DNA of 37,156 nt from Veillonella seminalis (GTDB lineage: Bacteria; Bacillota; Negativicutes; Veillonellales; Veillonellaceae), in contig NZ_RQUZ01000018.1 in the NCBI RefSeq assembly GCF_003992065.1, positions 1 to 37,156 on the forward strand. The letters run 5' to 3'. The notes beneath the pieces were generated by a model. The model saw nothing but the letters and a program-made list of their open reading frames with translations. It ran no database searches and had not been told where the DNA came from. Shown here piece after piece: positions 12,682 through 37,156 of the stretch (the first letter of the stretch is position 1; every line of letters starts with the position of its first letter). The position numbers were made by a program, and so were the translations under genes.

Positions 12682-13815
12682 TTAACCGTTTTTACGTTTA
12701 TTGGTAAAGGTGTGAACACTTATAAAGCCGGTGACGATGATGAAGGTAATGAGGGCAAAAATCTGAGGCCATAAATACTCTATACCAATCCCTTTTAGCA
12801 TGATACCGCGGATAATGGTTAAGTAGAATGTCATTGGCATAATGGCGCCGAGGTATTGGAAAATAGCATCCATGGCAACGCGGGGAAACATAAAGCCGGA
12901 CAGCAAAATACTCGGCATATATACCAAAATCGACATCTGCATAGCTTGCAGTTGCGTTTTGGCTACGGTAGAAACGAGGATTCCCAGCATCAGCGAGGAA
13001 ATAAGGAAGATGGTCGTTGTTATGAAGAGGACGAAAAAACTACCTTGAAACGGCACGTCAAAGAGTATAATACCGGCTACTAAAGCAATACCTGCTTGTG
13101 CGTAACCGATGAGCACATAAGGAATAACTTTGCCGATAATAATTTCGTAGTCTTTGAGCGGTGTTACCATTAATTGTTCTAAGGTGCCCACTTCCTGCTC
13201 ACGCACGATGGCCATGGCCGTAATACTTACCAAGGTCATAGTAATCATGAGGCTGATAATGCCCAGTACAATATTATAGGCCGTTATAAAATCCGGATTG
13301 AACCATGGATTGATTTTTACTTCAATGGCATTGCCCGACGGTACGGATTGTCCGGTCGCTAACAGTCGTTGTGAAGTAATGCTTAGGGAGCGTTGTTGAC
13401 CTAAGAGTTGTGCCGTGCTGATGGCACTGTTGGCTATCGTGTTATCACTGGCATCGACGATGAGTTGCATTTCCGCGGTGCGACCGTGTTTGATGTCTTC
13501 GCTGAAGGTTGGTGGGAAGGTGAGAGCAGCTACAGCCTTGCCGGAGTAAATACTATCCAGCATGGCTTGATTGCTGTCCACATACTCTACAACGTCATAG
13601 TAAGAGGTACCCACGAAGGCGCTAATCAGTTCTCGGCTTTCTTCACTTCGCGATTGGTCATAAATGACCGTGGGTACATGTTTTACGTCGGTATTAATAG
13701 CGTAGCCGAAAATAATGAGCTGCATTAAGGGCATTAAAATCAGCATAAATAAGGTGGCTTTGTCCCGTTTCATCTGGTGAAACTCTTTTATCAGTATAGC
13801 CCAAATTCGTTGCAT
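12682..13815 (-). CDS. ABC-2 type permease (YbhR/YbhS/YhhJ-like)
   Basis: 377 residues. One N-terminal membrane span (about 18-38) is followed by a large periplasmic domain (about 40-175) and five C-terminal spans with the ABC-2 motif VREQEVGTLEQLMVTPLKDYEIIIGK. This is the membrane part of a tripartite efflux pump with the fused ATPase (1 nt upstream) and the HlyD-type adaptor. E. coli ybh operons carry two such permeases; only one is present here, so it probably works as a homodimer. It is the last gene of the TetR-led operon. Substrate: drug-like or hydrophobic compounds, by analogy only. Confidence 0.9.
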   Translation of the reverse strand: MQRIWAILIKEFHQMKRDKATLFMLILMPLMQLIIFGYAINTDVKHVPTVIYDQSRSEESRELISAFVGTSYYDVVEYVDSNQAMLDSIYSGKAVAALTFPPTFSEDIKHGRTAEMQLIVDASDNTIANSAISTAQLLGQQRSLSITSQRLLATGQSVPSGNAIEVKINPWFNPDFITAYNIVLGIISLMITMTLVSITAMAIVREQEVGTLEQLMVTPLKDYEIIIGKVIPYVLIGYAQAGIALVAGIILFDVPFQGSFFVLFITTTIFLISSLMLGILVSTVAKTQLQAMQMSILVYMPSILLSGFMFPRVAMDAIFQYLGAIMPMTFYLTIIRGIMLKGIGIEYLWPQIFALITFIIVTGFISVHTFTNKRKNG

Positions 13816-13816
13816 A

Positions 13817-15319
13817 TCATTGACTCCTAGCTTGTTTCATATAATAAATAAACGCGTCTTCCAGATTATGGGCGCCCGGCGTGGTTTCTTTTAATACCTT
13901 CGGACGACCTTCGATGATTTTTTGCCCCTTGTCCATAAAGAGGATGCGGTCGCATTGTTCGGCTTCGTCCATAAAATGTGTGGTTACTAAAATGGTGGTG
14001 CCTCTATCGGACAGTTTATTGATGACAGTCCAGAATTGGCGTCGCGTCAACGGATCAACCCCGCTGGTCGGTTCGTCTAAGTACAAGATGGCCGGTTTAT
14101 GTAAAATAGCAGCCCCTAAAGAGGCGCGCTGACGCCAACCGGTCGGTAGTTCACGGACTAAACGGTTTTTAATTTCGTGTAATTCCAGTTCGTCGATAAC
14201 AATGTTGATTCGTTCGGTTAATTCCGCCGGTTTTAAACCATAGATACGGCCGTAAAATGTGAGGTTCTCCATAACGGTTAAATCTGCATAGAGACTGAAT
14301 TTTTGGGACATATAGCCCAGTTGCGACTTGATGAGTGACACATGTTTTGTCACATCTGTATTGAGTACTTCGATTTGCCCGGTAGTAGGGGTCAAGGTAC
14401 CGCAGAGCATGCGAATAGTAGTGGATTTACCGCAACCGTTGGAACCGAGTAGACCAAAGATTTCCCCTTCCTTGATGGTAATGTTGAGCTTGTTGACGGC
14501 TGTAAAATCACCGAATCGGCGTACCAGGTCTTCTGTTTGAATAACGACCGGCTTATCGGCGAGTCGTTCGAAGTCATGCTGCACCGTATAATCGGCGGTG
14601 AGTTCGTTATTCTTGTTGACGAGACGAATATATACTTCATCCAGGGTCTGATTTGAAGCTACCTTCGTTTGAGTTCGCAGATCTTGTGGTGTGCCGAGGG
14701 CTAGGATTTGGCCGGCTTCAAAAAAAGCAATTTGGCTGCAGTAGTCGGCTTCGTCCATGAAGGGCGTGGCGACTACCACGGTGGTACCTTCTTGGTTGAT
14801 TTTCTTGATTAAAGTCCATAATTCGCGGCGTGATAAGGGGTCAACACCGGTTGAAGGTTCGTCTAAAATGAGTAACCTTGGTGTGTTTAAGAGGGCTACG
14901 GCTAAAGCCAATTTTTGCTTCATACCGCCCGATAAATCGTTGGACATGCGGTCTTTAAAATTGCCGAGACCTACATATTCGGCAAGGGCATTGCATTTAT
15001 TGTGCAGTTCATCTTTAGTGAGATCGTATAATCGGCCATACAATTCGAGGTTTTCATAGACACTCAAATTGGGATATAAAGCAAAGAGTTGTGATACATA
15101 GCCGATAGTATGCTTGATATCGAGGGGAGAGGCGCCATTAATATCTATGGTTCCTTCGCTGGGAGCTATAAGGCCGCACAGCATGCGAAGAAGCGATGAT
15201 TTGCCGGCACCGTCGGCACCGACGAGACCGAACATTTCGCCGTCCGGAATAGTCAGGTTGATGCCGTTAAGAGCCTGTACATCGCCGTAATGTTTGTGGA
15301 CATTTTGAATGGTAATCAT
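13817..15319 (-). CDS. Fused double ABC transporter ATPase (YbhF-like)
   Basis: 500 residues holding two nucleotide-binding domains in tandem. The first has Walker A GADGAGKSS, signature LSGGMKQK and Walker B LLILDEPSTGVDP. The second has GSNGCGKST, a degenerate signature LPTGWRQR and ILYLDEPTSGVDP. In the first domain the H-loop reads VVVATPFMDEAD (Pro in place of His), while the second keeps TTHFMDEAE. Asymmetric sites of this kind are typical of the YbhF/RbbA group. It drives the ABC-2 permease encoded next. Its start overlaps the HlyD gene stop by 4 nt (ATGA). Confidence 0.92.
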   Translation of the reverse strand: MITIQNVHKHYGDVQALNGINLTIPDGEMFGLVGADGAGKSSLLRMLCGLIAPSEGTIDINGASPLDIKHTIGYVSQLFALYPNLSVYENLELYGRLYDLTKDELHNKCNALAEYVGLGNFKDRMSNDLSGGMKQKLALAVALLNTPRLLILDEPSTGVDPLSRRELWTLIKKINQEGTTVVVATPFMDEADYCSQIAFFEAGQILALGTPQDLRTQTKVASNQTLDEVYIRLVNKNNELTADYTVQHDFERLADKPVVIQTEDLVRRFGDFTAVNKLNITIKEGEIFGLLGSNGCGKSTTIRMLCGTLTPTTGQIEVLNTDVTKHVSLIKSQLGYMSQKFSLYADLTVMENLTFYGRIYGLKPAELTERINIVIDELELHEIKNRLVRELPTGWRQRASLGAAILHKPAILYLDEPTSGVDPLTRRQFWTVINKLSDRGTTILVTTHFMDEAEQCDRILFMDKGQKIIEGRPKVLKETTPGAHNLEDAFIYYMKQARSQ

Positions 15320-16290
15320 GGAATCACCACATCCACCGGCATGCCCGGTTTAAGAATTTCTTGGCCGTTATTTACTTTTATGCGGACTTTATACACTAAG
15401 TTATGGCGTTCCGTTTTGGTAATGCTTTGACGCGGTGTGTATTCCGCTTCGGGGCTGATACGTTCAATATAGCCTTCGAAGATTTGGCCGGGTAAACCAT
15501 CCACTTTGATTTGTGCTTTGTCGCCTACTTTAATAAGAGCGAGTTGCTCTGTCGATACATAGATATGAACCCACGCATCCTGCATGTCGGCAATGGTCAA
15601 AACGGGGGCGCCGGCTTTCACATATTCGCCCTTATTGTAGTTTTTGGTTAAAACAAGGCCGTTAACCGGGCTTTTCATCATTAAATCTTCCACCTTGCTT
15701 TGAGCGGAGGCCACATTAGCCTTTAGCGCTTCTACTTGAGATTGTGCGGCAGCAATCTGCTGACTGCGAGTGCCTTGTAATAATTCTTGGTAATCGGCGG
15801 TAGCTTTGGCAAGATTTTGCTGTGCCACATCATAGGCTTGTTGTTTTTGATCGCGGACTTGGGCGGATACAGCATCTTCTGCATATAAAGCTTCGTAGCG
15901 ATTAAATTCACGTAGTGCTTGGTCGCGAGATACGGTAGCGGAGTCAACCAAGGCTTTATAAGCTTTAATTTGGTCTTCACGAGCACCGGCTTGTAAATCC
16001 GCAAGGTTGGCCGCACCTTGAGCCTGCGATGCTTTGGCGGCGTCTAAAGCGGTGTTGGTGGTCGGTTCAGATAAGGTAAAGAGTGTTTCACCGGCTGTGA
16101 TGCGGCTGCCGAGATCTACATTAAGACCTTCAATATAGCCGCTGCTACGCGGTGTAATATCGTATTGATGTACTTCAATGGTGCCTACTGTATTTACTTT
16201 GCCGGTGGTGGTGCGAGGATAGAAGTAGTAGATGGCGATGCCGATTAAAAGAACCAGCACCAGGCCGATAGGGATGTATTTCTTTTTCAT
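15316..16290 (-). CDS. HlyD/EmrA-type membrane fusion (periplasmic adaptor) protein, YbhG-like
   Basis: 324 residues: an N-terminal membrane anchor (about 5-24), a biotinyl-lipoyl-like half (PRSSGYIEGLNVDLGSRITAG), a long coiled-coil hairpin (about 75-200, rich in Ala, Gln and Lys) and a beta-barrel end (NGLVLTKNYNKGEYVKAG, then QIKVDGLPGQIFEGYIERIS). It bridges the inner-membrane pump and an outer-membrane channel, which fits a diderm cell. No TolC gene is in the window. The gene follows tetR by 31 nt and overlaps the ATPase gene by 4 nt. Confidence 0.92.
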   Translation of the reverse strand: MKKKYIPIGLVLVLLIGIAIYYFYPRTTTGKVNTVGTIEVHQYDITPRSSGYIEGLNVDLGSRITAGETLFTLSEPTTNTALDAAKASQAQGAANLADLQAGAREDQIKAYKALVDSATVSRDQALREFNRYEALYAEDAVSAQVRDQKQQAYDVAQQNLAKATADYQELLQGTRSQQIAAAQSQVEALKANVASAQSKVEDLMMKSPVNGLVLTKNYNKGEYVKAGAPVLTIADMQDAWVHIYVSTEQLALIKVGDKAQIKVDGLPGQIFEGYIERISPEAEYTPRQSITKTERHNLVYKVRIKVNNGQEILKPGMPVDVVIP

Positions 16291-16321
16291 AAAAAACTCC
16301 TTATAGGTTAAAAGACACTAC

Positions 16322-16939
16322 TTAGTGTTCCGGGAAATAGGTATCAAAAAAGAATTGCAATGATGCTTTGGTTTCTTCCGGAGAAATAAAGACATCCTTC
16401 ATTGTCTTAACGGCTTCATTGATTGAGGCGCTGTAAATGATGGGGAAGACCAACATAGAAATCAGATGACTAAAGGTAAATTTAGTCATATTGCGTATCG
16501 TTTCATCAGATGCTGCCGGTTTTTGCTCTTTGATGAGGAGTTCCACATGGCTCATTATTTTGACAATGCCTTGGGAACGTAAGAATTTAATATAGGTCAT
16601 CTGGGTCGGGAAGGTTTGCTTCGATGAAAAAAGATAGTAAATAAACTTTTTATGTTTTGCTAAATGTTGTTGGTATTGAATTAAAAAGTCGAATAGTCGC
16701 TGTTTGGTTGGCTTGGTTTCGTCATCTAAAATTGAAAAAAATTCTTTTGCCCGTATGAGGATTTGGTTGATTACCTCATTGAAGAGAGTATCCTTATTTT
16801 TAAAATGGTAATTGACGAGCGCTACATTGACGTCTGCTTCGGCGGCAATCATGCGCACCGTAATACTGCTGATATCGTCGTTATTGAGCATTAAACGATA
16901 GGTTGTGTTGATGATTTTATCTTTGGTTGATTCAGCCAT
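16322..16939 (-). CDS. TetR family transcription regulator (CecR/YbiH-like)
   Basis: 205 residues. The N-terminal helix-turn-helix reads TVRMIAAEADVNVALVNYHFKNKDTLF (about 25-50), the classic TetR signature with the NYHF recognition helix. The rest is a helical ligand and dimer domain. It is the first gene of the efflux operon and shares a transcript with it, so it most likely represses its own operon and is released by a pump substrate, as known for CecR with ybhGFSR. Two matching palindromes upstream (17034-17050 and 17063-17079) are the probable operators. Confidence 0.9.
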   Translation of the reverse strand: MAESTKDKIINTTYRLMLNNDDISSITVRMIAAEADVNVALVNYHFKNKDTLFNEVINQILIRAKEFFSILDDETKPTKQRLFDFLIQYQQHLAKHKKFIYYLFSSKQTFPTQMTYIKFLRSQGIVKIMSHVELLIKEQKPAASDETIRNMTKFTFSHLISMLVFPIIYSASINEAVKTMKDVFISPEETKASLQFFFDTYFPEH

Positions 16940-17033
16940 AATAAATTCCTTTGTTTACGAATACTTACTAATACTTGCTAATACAGATTCAGATTACATA
17001 TTTACGAAGTTAGTATGAGATGTGTTTATAAAA

Positions 17034-17050
17034 TTTAAACAGCGTTTAAT
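17034..17050. promoter_or_regulatory. TetR-type operator, proximal copy
   Basis: TTTAAAC-AGC-GTTTAAT: 7-bp arms with one mismatch around a 3-bp centre. Same architecture as the copy at 17063-17079, 29 bp centre to centre. Confidence 0.6.
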
Positions 17051-17062
17051 TTACAACTCTAT

Positions 17063-17079
17063 TTTAAACATTGTTTAAA
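17063..17079. promoter_or_regulatory. TetR-type operator, distal copy
   Basis: TTTAAAC-ATT-GTTTAAA: perfect 7-bp inverted repeat around a 3-bp centre, about 125 bp upstream of the tetR start codon. Confidence 0.6.
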
Positions 17080-17140
17080 TAAAAAGCAAGGGTATTTAGC
17101 AATTAAATGAAAAAATTATCACTTAGTTCAAAAATAATAT

Positions 17141-17175
17141 AAAAAAACAGCTTGAAGATATATATCTTCAAGCTG
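17141..17175 (-). terminator. Terminator of the SRPBCC-HxlR unit
   Basis: A perfect 28-bp palindrome (17148-17175, arms CAGCTTGAAGATAT) is followed on the minus strand by seven T. It lies 75 nt beyond the hxlR-type stop codon. Confidence 0.8.
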
Positions 17176-17250
17176 CTGTTTAGATTTAGGAATTTTTTTG
17201 TCTGCTTATTCGGTTTTATGGAGAACAGTTTACCTGTCCTCTTTTATGTA

Positions 17251-17601
17251 TTAATTACAAGATGTTTCTTTCGGTAAAATGCGGTCCGGCATATAGGTTT
17301 TACCCCAGTCACACATAGATTCAATAATAGGAGCTAAGGTTAAGCCGAATTCAGTCAAACTGTATTCTGTTTTGGGAGGAACTACCGGATATACTTTTCG
17401 CTGAATGACACCGCTTTCCTCCAACTCCCGTAATTGTTGCGTCAACATTTTAGGTGTGGCCTGAGGAATGACGCGTTGCAATTCACTGTAGCGATGAGTC
17501 CGTTCCAATAAGTGCCATAAGATAATACATTTATATTTACCGCCCAATAGACTGAGAGCTGCTTCGACAGGGCATTGGAACATAGAATTTTTGGTAGCCA
17601 T
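17251..17601 (-). CDS. HxlR family winged-helix transcription regulator
   Basis: 116 residues, the normal length for HxlR proteins. The family pattern CPVEAALSLLGGKYKCIILW begins at C10, the winged helix contains RYSELQRVIPQATPKMLTQQLRELE, and the wing reads VPPKTEYSLTEFG. C10 is the conserved cysteine that in YodB/HypR-type members senses electrophiles or disulfide stress, so redox or quinone sensing is possible here (inference). It lies 30 nt after an SRPBCC-domain gene and is probably co-transcribed with and controls it. Repeated CTATAG-type palindromes upstream of the pair (18318-18407) are candidate sites. Confidence 0.93.
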   Translation of the reverse strand: MATKNSMFQCPVEAALSLLGGKYKCIILWHLLERTHRYSELQRVIPQATPKMLTQQLRELEESGVIQRKVYPVVPPKTEYSLTEFGLTLAPIIESMCDWGKTYMPDRILPKETSCN

Positions 17602-17631
17602 TAGTAATCCCTTCCTAAAAATAATAGTTTA

Positions 17632-18153
17632 TTATTTACCGGCTTTACTTTTTAATAAGGTAGCCGCTAAGCCATGGAGCCAATCCTGATGACCGATATT
17701 CATCGGGTCGGTCGGATCTTCGTGTAAAGCAACGGCCGGTTTACCGATTTGTGATTCTTGGGTCAAAATACGCACACGGTTTTCCGATAAATCTTCAATA
17801 AGCCAGGCGTGGATAACATCAAGTCGATGATCTTCGTCGCCTTCGGCCCAACCGTGCCAAGCCAAACGCCCCGGTTGATTACCGGATGGAGCTTCGAATT
17901 CGGTAATTTCAGCTTCGATAGGAAAACCGAAAGTTTTGAAACGAAAGCGTGTGTTTTCAGCGAGCTTCGTGCCTTTGGTATTATCGAATTCTACATCGGC
18001 TACATTTTTATAGTATGTTGGCCAAATGGCGACATCAATCAAATTTTCAAAAGCTTCGGCTGCCGTAACGCCTTGGATAATGACTTCGTTAGAAGCAAAG
18101 TTGTCGGTTGTACCCGGTAAATATTCGTGAGGCCAATTAATTTCGTGTAACAT
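17632..18153 (-). CDS. SRPBCC (START/Bet v 1-like) domain protein
   Basis: 173 residues. The pattern of a polyketide-cyclase/SRPBCC fold is visible: an early strand plus the ITAEA-like segment (GVTAAEAFENLIDVAIWPTYY), a central beta sheet (TRFRFKTFGFPIEAEITEFE) and WHGWAEGD...HAWLIEDL. These proteins make a hydrophobic pocket for a lipid-like or aromatic ligand. No signal peptide is seen, so it is cytoplasmic. Gene order with HxlR suggests a role in stress or detoxification, but the ligand and any enzyme activity are unknown. AAGGAGATATATT precedes the ATG. Confidence 0.75.
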   Translation of the reverse strand: MLHEINWPHEYLPGTTDNFASNEVIIQGVTAAEAFENLIDVAIWPTYYKNVADVEFDNTKGTKLAENTRFRFKTFGFPIEAEITEFEAPSGNQPGRLAWHGWAEGDEDHRLDVIHAWLIEDLSENRVRILTQESQIGKPAVALHEDPTDPMNIGHQDWLHGLAATLLKSKAGK

Positions 18154-20933: not shown

Positions 20934-21689
20934 TTATTTTAATTTTCCACCTAATATAGTCAAATCTTGGTCAAGTTGTTGAGCTGCTTTCATTTGGTCA
21001 ATTGTTGCTTGTGGCACTTGGAAATCCGCTTGATGTTGAGCACCCTTCATTCTGATAATAGGGTTCGTACCTTCTGTTAATAATTTGATGCCCGGACGTA
21101 ATTTATCATATGGTACATCTAATGTTTCATATTTCCCGCCCATTACTACTTCTGTATGCTTACCGTCACCAGATTGACCTGCAAAGGCATTTATTTTATA
21201 CTCCCATTTACCCTGATCTGTGGAAAAAATTAATTCATCCCAGAAAACCCAATTGATATCGCTCGTAAAATGTACTAACTTTATACGTTCGGTAACAGAT
21301 TTATCTTTTACAACGGCGTACCAATAAAGGTTTGTATCGGCAGGAACCGGTCCATTCCCCCAAGGTCTGTAGATCGTTTGGTTTTTTACTTGGTCGTTTT
21401 CTTGTGGAACGGAACCTAATATATTCATTGCATCAGCCTGGGCGTTTTCTTTCTGTTTTTCTTTATCCTGTGCTGTTTGGGCTGCTTGTGTTGCGTTGCC
21501 TCCGGTCGTACTGGTTTTACCGGAATCAGGTGCTAACATACCACAAGCGATAAATATGATAAATGTAGTTAGAAGAATTAGTTTTCTTCTGTTTGATTTA
21601 AAAAATGGTGCTACTTTATTTGGACTAAACATACCGACAATGCACCAAATAATAGCTAATAACGTAATAACCCCTAAAAAAGCTTCAAT
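20934..21689 (-). CDS. Membrane-anchored protein of unknown function, probable ATT start
   Basis: An ATG at 21632 would give 232 residues, but it has no ribosome site. In the same frame the coding sequence continues upstream to an ATT at 21689, which has AAGGAG 7 nt before it. The added 19 residues (EAFLGVITLLAIIWCIVG) form a clean membrane helix, followed by a basic patch KSNRRK and a second hydrophobic segment LILLTTFIIFIACGML. This helix-basic loop-helix start looks genuine, so I place the start at 21689 (251 residues). After a low-complexity Thr/Gln/Lys-rich linker the C-terminal part (about 95-251) is a soluble domain with WYAVVKDKSVTERIKLVHFTS. No known domain is recognised. ATT initiation is rare (infC is the textbook case). 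Confidence 0.65.
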   Translation of the reverse strand: MEAFLGVITLLAIIWCIVGMFSPNKVAPFFKSNRRKLILLTTFIIFIACGMLAPDSGKTSTTGGNATQAAQTAQDKEKQKENAQADAMNILGSVPQENDQVKNQTIYRPWGNGPVPADTNLYWYAVVKDKSVTERIKLVHFTSDINWVFWDELIFSTDQGKWEYKINAFAGQSGDGKHTEVVMGGKYETLDVPYDKLRPGIKLLTEGTNPIIRMKGAQHQADFQVPQATIDQMKAAQQLDQDLTILGGKLK

Positions 21690-27306: not shown

Positions 27307-28122
27307 ATGACACGGGAGGCCGCACTGGTAGAAGTAAATAATTTGAGCATAGCCTATGGTGAAGCGGCGCCTTCTGTGACAGACGTTACGTTTTCCTTAG
27401 AAGAAGGCGAAATTCTGGTTATCGTAGGTGAGTCCGGCAGTGGTAAAACCACGGTAATTCGGGCCCTATTAGGCTTATTGTCCGTAGGTGGTCACGTTGT
27501 GGGTGGACAGGCTCATTATCGTGGTCAAGACATTGCTCATTGGTCCGAGGAAGAATGGCGGAAATATCGGGGCACCGATATTTCCATGATCTTCCAGGAT
27601 AGCGGCAGTGCTATGGATCCGATTCAAACAATCGGTAAACAGTTTATTGCCCATATTCGTCGTCACAGTAATCTTGATAAAGCGGCGGCAGAAACAAAAG
27701 CCATAGAATTGATGAAAATGGTTTCCTTACCGGCGGATACAGACTTTTTAAAACGATATCCGTTTGAACTGAGCGGCGGTCAACGTCAGCGTTTGGGGAT
27801 TGCCATGGCTATGGCTTTCACGCCACACTTGTTACTTGCCGATGAACCGACTTCGGCTCTTGATGTGACGACGCAGGCTCAGATTGTAGATGAATTGATG
27901 CGGCTTTGTCAGAAGAGCCGTACCGGCATTATCATGGTAACCCATAATATTGGGGTGGCCGCTCATATGGCGGATAAAATCATGGTTATGCAACAAGGTA
28001 AAGTAGTAGATTACGGTTCACGGGATGACGTTCTTTTCAAAGAGCATTCAGCCTATACCCAGCAGTTATTGGATGCTGTACCAACGTTAGGAGGGAAACG
28101 CTATGTCGACACAGTTGAATAA
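27307..28122 (+). CDS. Peptide/nickel-type ABC ATPase (DppD/NikD family)
   Basis: 271 residues from the ATG at 27307; AAAGGATGTG (27287-27296) is a near-perfect ribosome site 10 nt before it, whereas an in-frame ATG at 27292 lies inside that site. Walker A GESGSGKTT, Q-loop in MIFQDSGSAMDPI, signature ELSGGQRQRLGIA and Walker B LLLADEPTSALD are all present, with H-loop VTHNIG. It is one half of the heterodimeric ATPase; the next gene is the other half, overlapping by 20 nt. Confidence 0.93.
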   Translation: MTREAALVEVNNLSIAYGEAAPSVTDVTFSLEEGEILVIVGESGSGKTTVIRALLGLLSVGGHVVGGQAHYRGQDIAHWSEEEWRKYRGTDISMIFQDSGSAMDPIQTIGKQFIAHIRRHSNLDKAAAETKAIELMKMVSLPADTDFLKRYPFELSGGQRQRLGIAMAMAFTPHLLLADEPTSALDVTTQAQIVDELMRLCQKSRTGIIMVTHNIGVAAHMADKIMVMQQGKVVDYGSRDDVLFKEHSAYTQQLLDAVPTLGGKRYVDTVE

Positions 28123-28978
28123 GGAAGAAGCAACTTATACTGAAAATAGCGGTACTCATACTTCGATGGTGGCGGCTGACGGCGTGGGTACACCGATTTT
28201 GGAAGTAAAAAATCTTTGTAAAAACTATTCTTTACCAAATGGTGGTACCTTACAAGCCTGTAAAGATGTATCTTGGTCCTTATGGCGCGGGGAATCATTG
28301 GGAATCGTTGGTGAGTCGGGCTCCGGTAAAAGTACGCTCATGAATATGATCATGCAAATGACGGCTCCTTCAGGCGGTGAAATTTATTTGAACGGCGTGG
28401 AAATCTCCAAAGCTTCATCCAAAGAAAAACGAGAACAACGCCGTAAAATTCAGATGGTGTTCCAGGACTCTTCGCAAGCGTTTGATCCTCGTATGTCAGT
28501 TGAAGATATTATCTGTGAACCTTTGTATAATTTCGGCCTTTTGAAAAAAGGCGAAACAACGGCTATTGCTACCAAGTACTTGGAGTTAGTTGGTCTTAAC
28601 GGTACCTTTGCCAAACGTTATCCTCATGAAATGAGTGGCGGTCAGCGTCAAAGGGTAGCCATTGCCCGTGCCTTAGTATTGGAACCGGATATTGTTGTAT
28701 TTGACGAAGCTACCTCTGCACTCGATGTATCCGTACAGGATTCTATTGCAAAATTGCTCGTTAAATTACAGAAGGAAAAACAGTTAACCTATTTATTTGT
28801 TGCCCATGACATTGCTTTGATTCGCAGTATCTGTCATCGTGTAGTTGTTATGTATAACGGTGAAGTTGTAGAAGCTATTTCGGCAGAACATTTAACGGAA
28901 GCCAAGCATCCGTATACGCGTAAATTACTGGCAGCTGTATTTGAAGTGACGGAGCATCGCGAACCGGTAACAGTATAG
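28103..28978 (+). CDS. Peptide/nickel-type ABC ATPase (DppF/NikE family)
   Basis: 291 residues. After a non-conserved N-terminal stretch of about 30 residues come Walker A GESGSGKST, Q-loop QMVFQDSSQAFDPRMS, signature MSGGQRQRVAIA and Walker B IVVFDEATSALD, then H-loop VAHDIALIR. The DEATSALD form is usual for DppF/NikE. The start lies inside the end of the preceding ATPase gene with AGGAGGGAAACGCT before it, implying coupled translation. The extended N-terminus is unusual, but the ribosome site supports it. Confidence 0.93.
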   Translation: MSTQLNKEEATYTENSGTHTSMVAADGVGTPILEVKNLCKNYSLPNGGTLQACKDVSWSLWRGESLGIVGESGSGKSTLMNMIMQMTAPSGGEIYLNGVEISKASSKEKREQRRKIQMVFQDSSQAFDPRMSVEDIICEPLYNFGLLKKGETTAIATKYLELVGLNGTFAKRYPHEMSGGQRQRVAIARALVLEPDIVVFDEATSALDVSVQDSIAKLLVKLQKEKQLTYLFVAHDIALIRSICHRVVVMYNGEVVEAISAEHLTEAKHPYTRKLLAAVFEVTEHREPVTV

Positions 28979-29024
28979 TAAGTAGCAATAAATAGTAGGG
29001 AACTTGGGGGCTGATTTAGAAGGT

Positions 29025-29525
29025 ATGGTACGGATAGAACTGATTACACCGGACACAGAAAGAGAACCGATTTATCAATTCTTGGTCGAGCAAATGCATG
29101 TACATTACAGAAGATCGTTAGATAGTGATCACAATAAATATTTTTTACAATTAGCTGAACATTATTCACCCGATAAGCGAAGTTCTTTCTATGTGCTCTA
29201 TGAAAATGATGAGGTCATGGGGACAGGTTGTATAAGTCCTTTAGAAGCTCATCATCGTCGACCGCTTCATTGTAAAGATGCATCACTTTGGGGATATATA
29301 TCACGGGTGTATATTTCTCCCAAATCACAAAGTAGCGGTTATGGTCGTCAGATTTATAAAGTATTGGAAACAACGGCTAAAGAGTTTGGTTATACTCATT
29401 TATGTTTGAATACGCATAAATTTCTTACTAAAGGTTGTGCCTTTTGGAAACGCCATGGTTACATTGAGTTCCAGGATATGGGGGATGAGTGGGAAACGAT
29501 TTGGCTCAGCAAAGAGTTGGTATAA
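29025..29525 (+). CDS. GNAT family N-acetyltransferase
   Basis: 166 residues from the ATG at 29025; a TTG 21 nt earlier is also possible and neither has a clean ribosome site. The GNAT core is visible: an acceptor strand SSFYVLYENDEVMGTGCISPL, the acetyl-CoA loop RVYISPKSQSSGYGRQIYKVL (Q/R-x-x-G-x-G/A pattern) and a C-terminal GCAFWKRHGYIEFQ segment. It transfers acetyl from acetyl-CoA to an amine on an unknown small molecule or protein. It starts about 47 nt after the ABC operon on the same strand with no terminator between, so it may be its last gene. Confidence 0.8.
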   Translation: MVRIELITPDTEREPIYQFLVEQMHVHYRRSLDSDHNKYFLQLAEHYSPDKRSSFYVLYENDEVMGTGCISPLEAHHRRPLHCKDASLWGYISRVYISPKSQSSGYGRQIYKVLETTAKEFGYTHLCLNTHKFLTKGCAFWKRHGYIEFQDMGDEWETIWLSKELV

Positions 29526-29565
29526 TTTGAGTGTATAAAGACTGTAGAGGTCCTGTGTTTTAAAG

Positions 29566-29734
29566 TTATCCACTAAAACAGGGTAATTTATACACAGAAA
29601 ATCAAGCGCTTATGCACAAATAATTACAAGTTATCCACTACTTATCCACCGAAAAAGACGACTTATCCACAGAATAGTGATTAAGTTTTCAAAAAAAAGT
29701 TATTCACAAGCAAAGATTTAAGTGAATATACACA
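29566..29734 (+). other. Array of eight DnaA-box-like 9-mers (candidate origin or DnaA-binding locus)
   Basis: On the + strand: TTATCCACT 29566, TTATACACA 29588, TTATGCACA 29610, TTATCCACT 29631, TTATCCACC 29642, TTATCCACA 29663, TTATTCACA 29700 and ATATACACA 29726. Four match TTATNCACA perfectly and four differ by one base. Starts are 22, 22, 21, 11 and 21 bp apart for the first six, so those lie on the same face of the helix. An A-tract (29691-29698) and AT-rich sequence follow. All boxes point the same way. See findings for arguments for and against oriC. Confidence 0.7.
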
Positions 29735-29751
29735 ATTAAATACATAAAAGA

Positions 29752-29800
29752 AAAAGCGTAATGCAATTGGATTCGAAATGAATCTCTGCATTACGCTTTT
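29752..29800. terminator. Bidirectional terminator
   Basis: AAAAGCGTAATGCA (29752-29765) pairs perfectly with 29787-29800. The loop has a further GATTC/GAATC pairing. T-rich tails on both sides serve the rightward GNAT gene and the leftward gene ending at 29882. Confidence 0.85.
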
Positions 29801-29881
29801 CTTATGGGCCGTGCACAATGAAAACTATAAAGTAGCGTTGGGGGGTGAGTAATGTTTCTTTGGGGTCAGCTATATAAACAC

Positions 29882-30208
29882 TTAAATAGCATCGTCATTT
29901 TCAGACATTACACTATCTAAGAGGAGGAGTATATTGTTGCCAATCTCCGAATAAAAGCGAACGCTGTCGGTTGACTCTATAAATTCCCATTTAACATGCA
30001 TAGCCGTATCGTTAGGGCCGTACTTCGAGCGAAGCGCTGTCTGTACGGTTTGGGGTAAGCGAATATCATACATAATGTTATAACGGTTAAATTTATCGTC
30101 CACTAAAATGTAGTGACTGTCGATAATTTCTACATTATAACGGCGCGATACAAGGTCGAGTAATCCTTGAGGCACTTTGTAGTCATTTTCTTGATTTGTT
30201 GAAGTCAA
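29882..30208 (-). CDS. Hypothetical protein downstream of meaB
   Basis: 108 residues beginning at a TTG (30208) with AAAGGAGG 8 nt upstream. I do not recognise it. The sequence reads as a mixed alpha/beta domain: LLDLVSRRYNVEIIDSHYILVDDK, NIMYDIRLPQ, MHVKWEFIESTDSV, then an acidic tail ENDDA. No signal peptide, membrane span or cysteine motif is visible. It is 111 nt after meaB on the same strand with no clear terminator between, so it may belong to the mutase operon. That gap holds a small GC-rich hairpin (GCACAAG...CTTGTGC, 30261-30286). Confidence 0.75.
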   Translation of the reverse strand: MTSTNQENDYKVPQGLLDLVSRRYNVEIIDSHYILVDDKFNRYNIMYDIRLPQTVQTALRSKYGPNDTAMHVKWEFIESTDSVRFYSEIGNNILLLLDSVMSENDDAI

Positions 30209-30319
30209 TCGGATGGCCTCCTTTCTGTGGATTCCTGTTGTAAGGCGTTATAAGGCCTTTGCACAAGGCGTTGCCGCGCTTGTGCAGACCTTGGGGCGAG
30301 TCGCGTAATCGGACAGTCC

Positions 30320-31483
30320 CTATTTGAGTATCGGATTGTTTTTAGATCCGATAGGCTCCAATTTTTCTTCAATGAAAGTATTGATAAGCTGTTGTACCGC
30401 TAAGGTTGGTGTCAGCTCACCTTGGAGTACTTGGTTTTCTACGCTGTCTTTGCAAGCAATGATACGCGGCGCCCGATAGAATAAGTTATGAAGATGTTCT
30501 TCCACCATGGAATATACCCACGACATAGTTTGCTGTTTGCGCCGTTCTTGTAAGACGCCGTTGGCTTGGCACTGTTCGATGAATTTTTCAATAACATCAT
30601 GCCAAAGCTCCATAACGCCTTCGCCGGTGTACGCCGAGCAAGTGTATGCCTTGGTAATCCAGCCTTCTGTGGCAGGCCGTAAGAAATGAAGAATACGATT
30701 GTATTCCGATTTCGTAATTAGGGCTTTCGGTTTATTGTCACCGTCCGCTTTGTTGACTACAATGCCATCGGACAGTTCGATTACACCTTTTTTCATACCC
30801 TGCAGTTCGTCACCGGCACCGGTCAGTACGACTAAAAGGAAAAAGTCGACCATGGAGCGCACAGTGGTTTCACTTTGACCGACACCGACGGTTTCGACAA
30901 GAATCGTGTCATAGCCGGCTGCTTCACAAAGAAGTAAGGTTTCACGGCTTTTACGGGTTAAGCCGCCAAGCGTCCCACCCGAAGGGGAAGGACGAATGAA
31001 GGCATTTTCTTGCCGTGATAAAGTAAACATACGAGTTTTATCACCCAAAATACTACCGCCGGTTACGGTACTGGACGGATCAACGGCCAAAACGGCCACT
31101 TTATGACCTTCTTGGCAAAGTTTGGTACCGAGACATTCGATAAAGGTGGATTTACCGGCGCCCGGTACACCGGTGATGCCGATACGCGTTGCTTTACCGG
31201 TATACGGCAACACTTTTTGAATAACTTGCTGAGCCATTTCAAAATGGGCGGCTGCATTACTTTCGATGAGGGTAATGGCACGGGACAGCATCATGCGATT
31301 GCCGCTTAAAATGCCTTCCACATAATCATCGACGGTAAGTTTGGCCGGCCGTTTGCCGGTTTGCTGAGGCGGTGTACTTGTGGTATTACGCAAAGGACTG
31401 TCATTGAGGCCGCGCATAACGCGGCAGGCGAATTTATCATCATCTGCTTCGGGAACCCAGGACGGTTTATATCGTTCCGTCAT
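30320..31483 (-). CDS. meaB: Methylmalonyl-CoA mutase-associated G-protein chaperone MeaB
   Basis: 387 residues. The G domain has P-loop GVPGAGKS (105-112), DPSSTVTGGSILGDKTRM (switch region), ETVGVGQSE and NKADG. MeaB hydrolyses GTP to gate loading of adenosylcobalamin into the mutase and to eject damaged cofactor, and it acts in the cytoplasm bound to the mutase. The first 50 residues are an extension with a PSWVPEADDDKFACRVMRG segment, longer than in the shortest homologues. The start at 31483 has GAGGAGTGATACT upstream, 4 nt after the mutB stop. Confidence 0.95.
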   Translation of the reverse strand: MTERYKPSWVPEADDDKFACRVMRGLNDSPLRNTTSTPPQQTGKRPAKLTVDDYVEGILSGNRMMLSRAITLIESNAAAHFEMAQQVIQKVLPYTGKATRIGITGVPGAGKSTFIECLGTKLCQEGHKVAVLAVDPSSTVTGGSILGDKTRMFTLSRQENAFIRPSPSGGTLGGLTRKSRETLLLCEAAGYDTILVETVGVGQSETTVRSMVDFFLLVVLTGAGDELQGMKKGVIELSDGIVVNKADGDNKPKALITKSEYNRILHFLRPATEGWITKAYTCSAYTGEGVMELWHDVIEKFIEQCQANGVLQERRKQQTMSWVYSMVEEHLHNLFYRAPRIIACKDSVENQVLQGELTPTLAVQQLINTFIEEKLEPIGSKNNPILK

Positions 31484-31487
31484 AGTA

Positions 31488-33671
31488 TCACTCCTCTAGA
31501 CGTTCATTTAACAATTCGAGTACTTTCTTCGCACATACAGGGATAATGGTACCAGGGCCAAAGATGGCAGCGGCACCGTGTTCATATAAGAAATCATAAT
31601 CTTGAGCCGGAATTACGCCGCCGATGATAACCATGATATCTTCACGGCCGCGTTTTTTGAGCTCTTCAATAAGCTGTGGCATAAGTGTTTTATGGCCGGC
31701 AGCCAAGGAGCTGATGCCGACGATGTGAACGTCATTATCTACAGCGTCTTGGGCAGCTTCTTCCGGAGTTTGGAATAAAGGTCCGATATCTACGTCATAG
31801 CCCATATCGGCGAAGGCGGTAGCAATAACTTTCGCACCGCGGTCATGACCGTCCTGACCCATTTTAGCGATAAAGATACGAGGTCGACGACCTTCGCGTT
31901 CTTCGAAGTCATCGGTCATCTGACGTACTTCGGAGATAACATCATCATCGCTGAATTCACTGCTGTATACGCCGGAGATGGAGCGGATGATTGCTTTATG
32001 ACGACCGCAAACTTTTTCAACGGCATCGGAAATTTCACCCTTGGAAGCACGAGCACGCGCCGCTTCTACGGCTAATTCCAATAAGTTGCCTTCGCCGGTT
32101 TCCATGGAATGCGTAATGGCATCGAGGCATTGGCGAACTTTGTCGTTGTCGCGGTTAGCTCTTAATTTTTCAAGACGTTCAATCTGAGCCAAACGTACGG
32201 TAGTATTATCTACTTCGAGGATATCGAGCGGATCTTCTTTGTCTAAGCGCATATAGTTAACGCCGACAATTTTTTCACTGCCGGAGTCGATATGAGCCTG
32301 ACGGCGAGCGGCGGCTTCTTCGATACGCATCTTAGGAAGGCCGGTGTCGATAGCTTTGGACATACCGCCGAGTTCTTCGATTTCTTGAATATGAGCCCAA
32401 GCTTTGCGAATCAATTGGTTGGTCAAGAATTCTACATAATAGGAACCGCCCCATGGGTCGATAACCTTACATACCTTGGTTTCATCCTGGATATAAAGCT
32501 GCGTATTACGAGCAATACGTGCGGAGAAGTCGGTCGGCAAGGCGATGGCTTCGTCAAGCGCATTCGTATGAAGCGACTGGGTATGGCCCAAAGCAGCCGC
32601 CATAGCTTCGATACAAGTACGGGTAATATTGTTGAACGGATCCTGTTCGGTGAGACTCCAACCGGATGTCTGCGAATGCGTACGGAGCGCCATGGATTTA
32701 GGGTTTTCAGGTTTGAAGCTGTTAACGATTTTAGCCCATAACATACGGCCGGCACGCATTTTGGCGATTTCCATGAAGTAGTTTTTACCCATAGCCCAGA
32801 AGAAGGACAAACGAGGGGCGAACTGGTCAATAGTTAAGCCGTGTTGGGTACCGGTACGGAGATATTCAAGACCGTCAGCCAAAGTATAACCCAATTCGAT
32901 ATCGGCGGTAGCACCGGCTTCTTGCATATGGTAACCGGAAATGGAGATACTGTTAAATTTAGGCATGTATTTGGATGTATAAGCGAAAATATCGCCGATA
33001 ATACGCATGGAAGCGGCCGGAGGATAGATATATGTGTTACGTACCATGAACTCTTTCAAAATATCATTTTGAATCGTACCGGCCATAACTTTTTTATCAA
33101 CGCCTTGTTCTTCACCGGCTAAGATGTAGAACGCCATGATTGGCAAAACGGCGCCGTTCATTGTCATGGATACGGACATTTGATCGAGTGGAATACCGGA
33201 GAAGAGGATTTCCATGTCGAGGATGGAGTCAACGGCTACGCCTGCTTTACCAACGTCGCCTACAACGCGTGGATGGTCGGAGTCATAACCGCGGTGAGTG
33301 GCAAGGTCAAAGGCGATGGATAAGCCTTTCTGACCGGCGGCGAGGTTACGACGATAGAAGGCGTTGGATTCTTCGGCAGTGGAGAAACCGGCGTACTGTC
33401 GTACTGTCCAAGGACGGGTTACATACATGGTAGCGTATGGGCCACGTAAATATGGCGGTAAACCGGCCATATAGGATAAGTGATTACAATCGGCGTAAGC
33501 ACCCTGATCATAAAGCGGTGCTACATCGATTTGTTCCATCGTGCGATAGAAGTTTTCATCAAAGGATTTGCCTGTTTCAGCTTTTAACTGTGTAAGCCAT
33601 TCTTGAGCCGCTTGCTCATTGGCTTCGGCCCCGGCAAATGGGATATTTGCGAAATTAGGTATTTTAGCCAT
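31488..33671 (-). CDS. mutB: Methylmalonyl-CoA mutase, large (catalytic) subunit
   Basis: 727 residues, the usual length. An N-terminal TIM barrel has [20 protein letters not shown] (CoA region) and [21 protein letters not shown]-terminal B12 domain has [15 protein letters not shown], with the DxHxxG motif at D607-G612 (H609 is the cobalt-ligating base), and the closing [11 protein letters not shown]. It interconverts (R)-methylmalonyl-CoA and succinyl-CoA in the cytoplasm using adenosylcobalamin. In succinate-decarboxylating Negativicutes this feeds methylmalonyl-CoA decarboxylase and propionate formation. Its ATG overlaps the mutA stop by one base (TAATG). Confidence 0.98.
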
Positions 33672-36178: not shown

Positions 36179-36234
36179 AAGATTGTATGCGAAAAGAATC
36201 ACACCATATCTTCCCGTCTATCGCGGGTATAACG

Positions 36235-36400
36235 ACATGCTTCCTTAGGCAGTTCTTCTGACTCAGCTTCATCATTCCTTTTGCCTTCCCAAACATAATA
36301 TTCAGTGACATACTAAAAAGGAACTTCACTTCACAGCGGCGGGACCGTGTCGGAGTTGCACCGACTTCTCTATTAAGCATAAAAGCACCTAGAGGGGACT
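36235..36400 (-). promoter_or_regulatory. Cobalamin riboswitch
   Basis: On the minus strand, in order: AGGTGC (36390-36385), TTAATAGAGAA, the GTCGGTGCAACTCCGAC hairpin, ACGGTCCCGCCGCTGTGA, a variable hairpin, GGGAAGG, and the B12 box AGTCAGAAGAACTGCC (36264-36249). These match the conserved cobalamin aptamer core. It lies downstream of a near-perfect promoter and upstream of a terminator, so it should control transcription in response to B12. Confidence 0.93.
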
Positions 36401-36419
36401 GTATTTATTTTATAATTTT

Positions 36420-36748: not shown

Positions 36749-36880
36749 AGTTCATGTCCTCAATCACGGGACATCAAGTGACCGCCTTCAAGCAATTGAA
36801 AGCGGGTTATTTTGAAAAAAGTGATGTATATTCTTTCAGTTTTAGTACTAAACTTTTTTAAAAGAAATTTTAAAAAGTTC

Positions 36881-36909
36881 TTGACACGATAAACTAATTG
36901 CGATATACT
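36881..36909 (+). promoter_or_regulatory. rRNA operon promoter P2
   Basis: TTGACA (36881-36886), a 17-bp spacer, TATACT (36904-36909). It is about 200 nt before 16S and is probably the main promoter. Confidence 0.85.
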
Positions 36910-36915
36910 AATTAA

Positions 36916-37109
36916 GCTGTCGCAAGCCGCTAAGGTAAAGCGATAAAGCAGATCTTTGAAAACTGAACAATGTAAGGTAATCATTTTTAACGAAATGAAC
37001 ATAGCCAGAGTGCGGGTTTCGACAACGTCGAAACCAACCAAATAAATTCTAGTCACTAACTTCGGTTAGAGACAACAACGAAAAACGAGCTAGCAAATAG
37101 CTCCAAGAT
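36916..37109 (+). other. rRNA leader with boxA-like element and processing hairpins
   Basis: It contains GATCTTTGAAAACTGAACAA (36951-36970), the conserved boxA-like leader sequence of Firmicute rRNA operons. Further hairpins are GGTTTCGAC-AAC-GTCGAAACC (37014-37034), GAGCTA...TAGCTC (37087-37102) and the palindrome CTCCAAGATATCTTGGAG (37101-37118). Confidence 0.75.
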
Positions 37110-37156
37110 ATCTTGGAGAGTTTGATCCTGGCTCAGGACGAACGCTGGCGGCGTGC
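37110..37156 (+). rRNA. rrs: 16S ribosomal RNA, 5' end (partial)
   Basis: The universal AGAGTTTGATCCTGGCTCAG (E. coli positions 8-27) starts at 37117 and is followed by GACGAACGCTGGCGGCGTGC. By that alignment the mature 5' end is near 37110. The gene runs off the right edge. Confidence 0.97.

Follow-up and report, generated by a model that had tools for sequence, protein, structure and literature searches.

An oriC-proximal secondary cluster of predicted DnaA boxes, conserved behind a GNAT gene in Veillonella seminalis and its relatives

The array and its genomic neighbourhood

The window analysed here is an entire contig (C18, 37,156 bp) of the 2.25-Mb draft genome of Veillonella seminalis (G000), which is divided into 26 contigs. 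An earlier note on this DNA had described eight 9-mers resembling TTATNCACA, four perfect and four with one mismatch, all on the + strand between positions 29566 and 29734, and all eight were found at those places. In the window this array sits between two gene 3' ends, that of a GNAT acetyltransferase gene, upstream of which lie nickel-type ABC transporter genes (nik), and that of a convergent gene for a 108-aa protein, after which come the MeaB and methylmalonyl-CoA mutase genes. The features are as follows (boxes are aligned across the five species that have an array):

29004..29525, + strand: GNAT acetyltransferase gene (Pfam PF00583); 5/5 arrays follow its 3' end
29566..29574, + strand: DnaA box 1, TTATCCACT, one mismatch; aligned box (at most one mismatch) in 5/5 array species
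29588..29596, + strand: DnaA box 2, TTATACACA, perfect; box in 5/5 array species
29610..29618, + strand: DnaA box 3, TTATGCACA, perfect; box in 5/5 array species
29631..29639, + strand: DnaA box 4, TTATCCACT, one mismatch; box in 5/5 array species
29642..29650, + strand: DnaA box 5, TTATCCACC, one mismatch; box only in G000, G006 and G002 (3/5)
29663..29671, + strand: DnaA box 6, TTATCCACA, perfect; identical in G000, G006 and G002 (3/5)
29700..29708, + strand: DnaA box 7, TTATTCACA, perfect, out of helical phase; identical in G000, G006 and G002 (3/5)
29726..29734, + strand: DnaA box 8, ATATACACA, one mismatch; common to G000 and G006 only (2/5)
29743..29806, no strand assigned: strong hairpin between the array and the 108-aa gene (fold -27.7 kcal/mol, z -5.5)
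29882..30208, - strand: convergent gene for the 108-aa protein; no family in Pfam and NCBIfam searches
36857..37156, + strand: rRNA operon leader and apparent 16S start, located beyond the array as seen from oriC, where the contig ends

Homologues of the 108-aa protein were present in the corresponding stretches of G006 (94% identical) and G002 (91%), and none was found in the other relatives' stretches searched. The hairpin has a counterpart in the similar inverted repeats seen in G006 and G002, and may perhaps act as a terminator for one or both of the converging genes; a simple terminator scan listed no site there. The neighbours that had been named as often origin-proximal, namely ychF, rpsF-ssb-rpsR and an rRNA operon, are all present, the last as a leader (36857-37084) that shares 87.6% identity with the one following the array in G005, together with a 16S start that we read by eye at the right contig end. 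The Rfam scan reported no rRNA in the window, presumably because the window has only its first bases.

Two further observations concern this neighbourhood. A cobalamin riboswitch lies at 36231-36407 on the - strand, upstream of the methylmalonyl-CoA mutase genes. We also considered whether the region might be a plasmid relic and rejected this, as positions 28000-31500 gave no match in a plasmid collection ('near' mode search).

Clustering and helical phasing of the boxes

It is the clustering of the boxes, not their total number, that exceeds chance in the window. Counting both strands and allowing one mismatch, we observed 46 boxes against a chance mean of 45.9. The eight same-strand boxes within 169 bp are, however, far above chance: among 60 Markov-1 sequences of window length (37 kb) the maximum per 169 bp was three (reached in eight of them), and among 3000 sequences of local intergenic composition it was four, reached once. 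Real DNA behaves similarly, with at most three such boxes per 169 bp in twenty 10-kb samples of a relative's chromosome and at most two in the remainder of the window. Looking genome-wide for clusters, as had been proposed, we found that same-strand box pairs (TTATNCAC, 2-34 apart) in G000 are confined to C15, the contig that carries dnaA (five pairs), and to the array (six), the total of 11 comparing with three matches to a reversed control pattern.

The starts of successive boxes are 22, 22, 21, 11, 21, 37 and 26 bp apart. At 10.5 bp per turn the first six do lie on one helical face, as had been suggested (R 0.86, a value that 0.6% of random spacings reach), while the phasing of all eight is marginal (R 0.66; 4.9% of random spacings). 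In the relatives the corresponding shares of random spacings are 4.5% for G006, 2.6% for G005 and 8.3% for G003, so that for the four boxes of the last the phasing is not significant.

The AT-rich right flank with an A-tract is likewise present, but its AT-richness is ordinary for the window: the best 50-bp AT fraction is 0.80, compared with a median of 0.74 and a 90th percentile of 0.86 among 97 tiles of the window. An AT-rich unwinding element to the right of the array was rejected on these grounds.

Conservation behind the GNAT gene

An orthologue of the GNAT gene was found in five of the seven genomes of the genus, and in each of the five it is followed, on its sense strand, by four or more boxes; besides V. 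seminalis, the gene is present in Veillonella ratti ATCC 17746, V. intestinalis DSM 105313, Veillonella sp. R32 and Veillonella sp. KGMB01456 (four loci). Four boxes are common to all five arrays, and three arrays have at least seven. The spacing 22-22-21-11-21 is identical in G000, G002 and G006, continuing with 37 in the first two and with 38 plus an eighth box in G006. In G003 and G005 there are four boxes 20-22 bp apart, boxes 5-8 are absent, and there is additionally one box-like site on the opposite strand. In the remaining two genomes, no GNAT orthologue was found in G004, and no GNAT match in G001, where the expected place of the array reads N. These runs of N occur in an otherwise near-complete relative (L012:1-1500, L105).

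We asked how the boxes fare relative to their surroundings by comparing the 48 fixed columns of boxes 1-6 with the 58 other columns under circular shifts of the box mask. In the five-species alignment the mean identity was 0.675 in box columns and 0.369 in the others, and in the three close species 0.958 and 0.667; in both cases none of 105 mask shifts was as extreme. Conservation in relatives had been named in advance as a check, and the persistence of the array behind an orthologous GNAT gene, with boxes conserved over spacers, leaves a secondary oriC-proximal DnaA locus well supported.

For tandem sites of this kind, one may also consider that a protein other than DnaA uses the repeats, or that they are a neutral leftover of tandem repetition. 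Short repeats can expand, and DnaA binding is here a prediction; still, the motif is the same as in the clusters round dnaA, and the boxes stay while the intervening sequence diverges, which makes either reading highly improbable.

The gene downstream of the array varies, being the convergent 108-aa gene in G000, G006 and G002 and a co-directional LysR-type regulator gene in G003 and G005. Since the array is kept while this gene changes, it appears to be tied to the place rather than to one promoter, which argues against a role at a single promoter. This bears on the possibility that DnaA bound at the array represses or activates a neighbour, such as the LysR gene, or forms a roadblock where the nik-GNAT operon ends. 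In G003 and G005, where the array separates GNAT from a LysR gene of the same direction, its position would suit such an element, and in B. subtilis a number of clusters are located at promoters regulated by DnaA (PMC4447404). We nevertheless consider it quite unlikely, for in G000, G006 and G002 it is the 3' ends of two converging genes that enclose the array, and the promoter scan gave one weak site, outside the array, where shuffled sequences give 2.9. A promoter role was rejected, there being no promoter-like site within the array.

Distance to oriC and direction of the fork

The single match to the DnaA C-terminal domain in G000 falls on C15, in agreement with the earlier statement that the window holds no dnaA; the dnaA frame (614 aa) is at C15:30669-32513. 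Synteny with relatives places the window with respect to this gene. The comparison with G001 took in 26 proteins of the window, from a PatB-type lyase to GNAT; clear counterparts emerged for 17 of them, and these run collinearly from 1541 to 1517.5 kb there. An ABC-transporter/MarR block (12682-18153), a rhodanese, the frame at 20934 and GNAT had no counterpart in the stretches of G001 that were read. Because the two leftmost genes of C15 adjoin PatB in G001, G003 and G005, C15 and C18 are most likely joined left end to left end, which would put the array about 30.5 + 29.6 = 60 kb from oriC, plus the contig gap. Synteny across one contig gap thus most likely places the array on the left arm some 60 kb from oriC; with two arms of equal length in the 2.25-Mb genome, this would be about 5% of a replichore. 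Added up in the same way over contigs C9 and C4, the distance in G003 is about 44 kb, and nikE of G001 lies 45.6 kb away from dnaA.

An oriC on the left means a fork that moves through the window in the + direction, so that rpsF-ssb-rpsR and nik are co-directional with replication. The earlier note had held that with an origin here rpsF-ssb-rpsR would run against the fork, and had counted this as an objection; that objection falls.

The array is not the origin

In G000, dnaA, two box clusters and an unwinding module are found together on C15. Eleven boxes (both strands) flank dnaA on one side and six on the other, and on its 3' side trios, a GC-rich spacer and boxes follow in order. A strict trio module (DnaA box, short GC-rich spacer and DnaA-trios, TA[G/A]) occurs beside dnaA in 7/7 genomes of the genus and at none of the five arrays. 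The basal unwinding module is defined here as in PMC8287927; the search in that paper admits trios of greater degeneracy, and our strict scan could therefore miss a weak one.

GC skew points the same way. In G001, a near-complete relative with a main contig of 2.2 Mb, twenty 10-kb samples gave four positive, ten negative and six positive values in order. A walk in 2.5-kb bins placed one sign change at dnaA: 16 of the 18 bins before the gene are negative (the exceptions being +0.014 and +0.012) and positive values fill all five bins from 1562.5 kb onwards; a second change falls between 390 and 490 kb. The skew of the window is positive in 15/15 bins, with no change of sign. A skew check had been proposed for an origin at the array, and its outcome goes against one.

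Origins away from dnaA exist, so the absence of dnaA alone would not decide against oriC; it is the position of dnaA, the skew and the location of the unwinding module elsewhere that together indicate that the array is not oriC. The many boxes, the AT-rich right flank and the proximity of rpsF-ssb-rpsR and rrn would fit an origin or a back-up origin. Given the evidence above, including the ordinary AT-richness, we regard either as extremely unlikely. Compared with oriC of this clade, as seen in the flanks of dnaA, the array has the same box motif and the same head-to-tail stretches, but is without the trio/GC module (present in 7/7 genomes) and the skew change (seen in G001). The earlier note had offered oriC or a secondary titrating or reactivating locus, leaning to the second: the origin part does not hold, the secondary DnaA locus does.

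Titration of DnaA as the probable role

The array is a genuine, conserved, oriC-proximal secondary cluster of predicted DnaA boxes. As in DnaA-box clusters outside oriC (the DBC type), we find above-chance clustering, an oriC-proximal position and, in five species, boxes kept by selection. The best explanation of these features is that it is neither an origin nor an ordinary promoter element, and it is probably a cluster of the B. subtilis kind that titrates DnaA, titration being the most likely role in our analysis.

We infer the binding of DnaA, its cooperativity and its effect on timing from the sequence. Judging by the motif, DnaA (mostly ATP-DnaA) would bind cooperatively along the head-to-tail boxes two helical turns apart. 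This assembly would not open the DNA, since no DnaA-trio and GC-rich spacer follow the boxes. At about 60 kb from oriC the sites would double soon after each initiation, and the doubled sites could then bind free DnaA and delay the next initiation.

Precedents exist in both model bacteria. Portions of PMC5295017 and PMC13220808 report that joint removal of six B. subtilis clusters outside oriC leads to early initiation and suggest that these clusters titrate DnaA, and for E. coli a passage of PMC12371093 holds that the concentration of boxes near oriC fits titration. In four genomes of the lineage a profile search gave no YabA match above the cut-off (weak evidence of absence), the one sub-threshold match, in G000, lying in a broken frame. 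The primary paper on the B. subtilis clusters is that of Okumura et al. 2012, cited here through reviews. The kind of site is thus known; a description of this particular array was not found in the literature searched, nor was any of DnaA-box clusters of Veillonella or Negativicutes in the open-licence PMC literature.

Alternatively, the array might change the nucleotide state of bound DnaA, promoting ATP hydrolysis as datA does with the help of IHF, or ADP release as DARS does. Head-to-tail phased boxes could suit a DnaA oligomer, and datA and DARS likewise do not code for protein, show better conservation in boxes than in spacers, and keep a conserved distance from oriC (PMC4585315). Against this, though weakly, the array has eight boxes in one orientation where the DARS core has three, joined by a flanking element or IHF/Fis sites, and datA and DARS are said in a passage of PMC13220808 to be absent from B. 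subtilis, again a weak point. Such a switch is on balance unlikely.

Comparison with known systems

The closest single element to this putative titration site is the gcp-ydiF cluster of B. subtilis, reportedly one of the six deleted clusters. Like the array, which has eight boxes, it combines many of them (10) with a place between two 3' ends at a distance from dnaA. It also binds DnaA strongly, with 16-fold more recovery with ATP-DnaA than with ADP-DnaA at low concentration (PMC4447404). In contrast to the array, it lies about 628 kb rather than about 60 kb from dnaA, has other neighbour genes and belongs to another class of Firmicutes; its DnaA binding was measured, whereas that of the array is predicted. 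B. subtilis also has YabA, in contrast to the lack of an above-cut-off match in four genomes of the array's lineage.

The datA, DARS1 and DARS2 loci of Escherichia coli are non-coding box loci away from oriC in which changes fall mostly in spacers, as in the array; they have, however, fewer boxes and IHF/Fis partners, and an effect on the nucleotide state of DnaA has been shown there (PMC4585315). The oriC-proximal box excess of E. coli is a broad density effect over centisomes, as a passage of PMC12371093 has it, whereas the array is one phased element.

To our knowledge, little is known of what limits DnaA in bacteria other than E. coli and B. subtilis. A conserved array in a non-promoter context, in a lineage where four genomes gave no above-cut-off YabA match, would offer a small removable element for a direct test of titration.

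Other box clusters in the family

Two further sets of boxes were observed, one in the same genus and one in another:

C15 about 13437-13590 (L086:1501-1653), both strands: 17-kb cluster in G000, beside a 105-aa gene
L083:1501-1617, L079 and L138-L148, same-strand boxes: RluA-array loci in Veillonella sensu stricto

The first, a second conserved cluster, adjoins a 105-aa gene without known family and has 7-11 boxes (both strands) in 7/7 genomes of the genus. In the six genomes with both on a single contig, 16-18 kb separate it from dnaA; three loci were searched for RNA, and in each a tRNA gene flanks the cluster opposite the 105-aa gene. In G000 it contains one weak trio-module match without a GC-rich spacer. 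A relative of the 105-aa gene also occurs beside a three-box cluster in G008, a member of another genus.

The second set lies within a coding gene. In genus g4, which we take to be Veillonella sensu stricto, an RluA-family pseudouridine synthase orthologue was found in 13 of 14 genomes, and 10 of these 13 carry, in frame, same-strand boxes spaced 12-21-21-21-21-12, seven of them with an eighth box. The exceptions are G025, without the middle box, G013, which is irregular, and G026, which has none. Among the 14 best homologues outside g4, none reaches three boxes within 170 bp. The array falls within a variable protein loop rich in VDN/VDK, and the two aligned homologues of the window's genus have a shorter, unlike loop at that position; the spacing suits the reading frame as well as two turns of the helix. 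In five single-contig sensu stricto genomes this array lies 208-328 kb from dnaA.

There may, quite tentatively, be a distinct class of DnaA array in Veillonella-type bacteria, with six to eight one-strand boxes two turns apart plus one or two one-turn pairs. In the V. ratti/V. intestinalis lineage it would follow nik-GNAT near oriC (with four to eight boxes there), and in Veillonella sensu stricto it would lie 208-328 kb from dnaA, in frame within the RluA loop, serving as both protein code and DnaA scaffold. The array in the RluA gene is a more unusual lead than that of the window, and in this sister genus it would show titration sites selected strongly enough to shape a protein.

Finally, the orientation of boxes relative to the fork was considered as a possible rule and rejected, because it differs among clusters: all boxes of the window array point with the fork, six of nine in the 17-kb cluster of G000 point against it, and so do those of the RluA arrays in the five single-contig sensu stricto genomes, assuming that oriC is at dnaA there.
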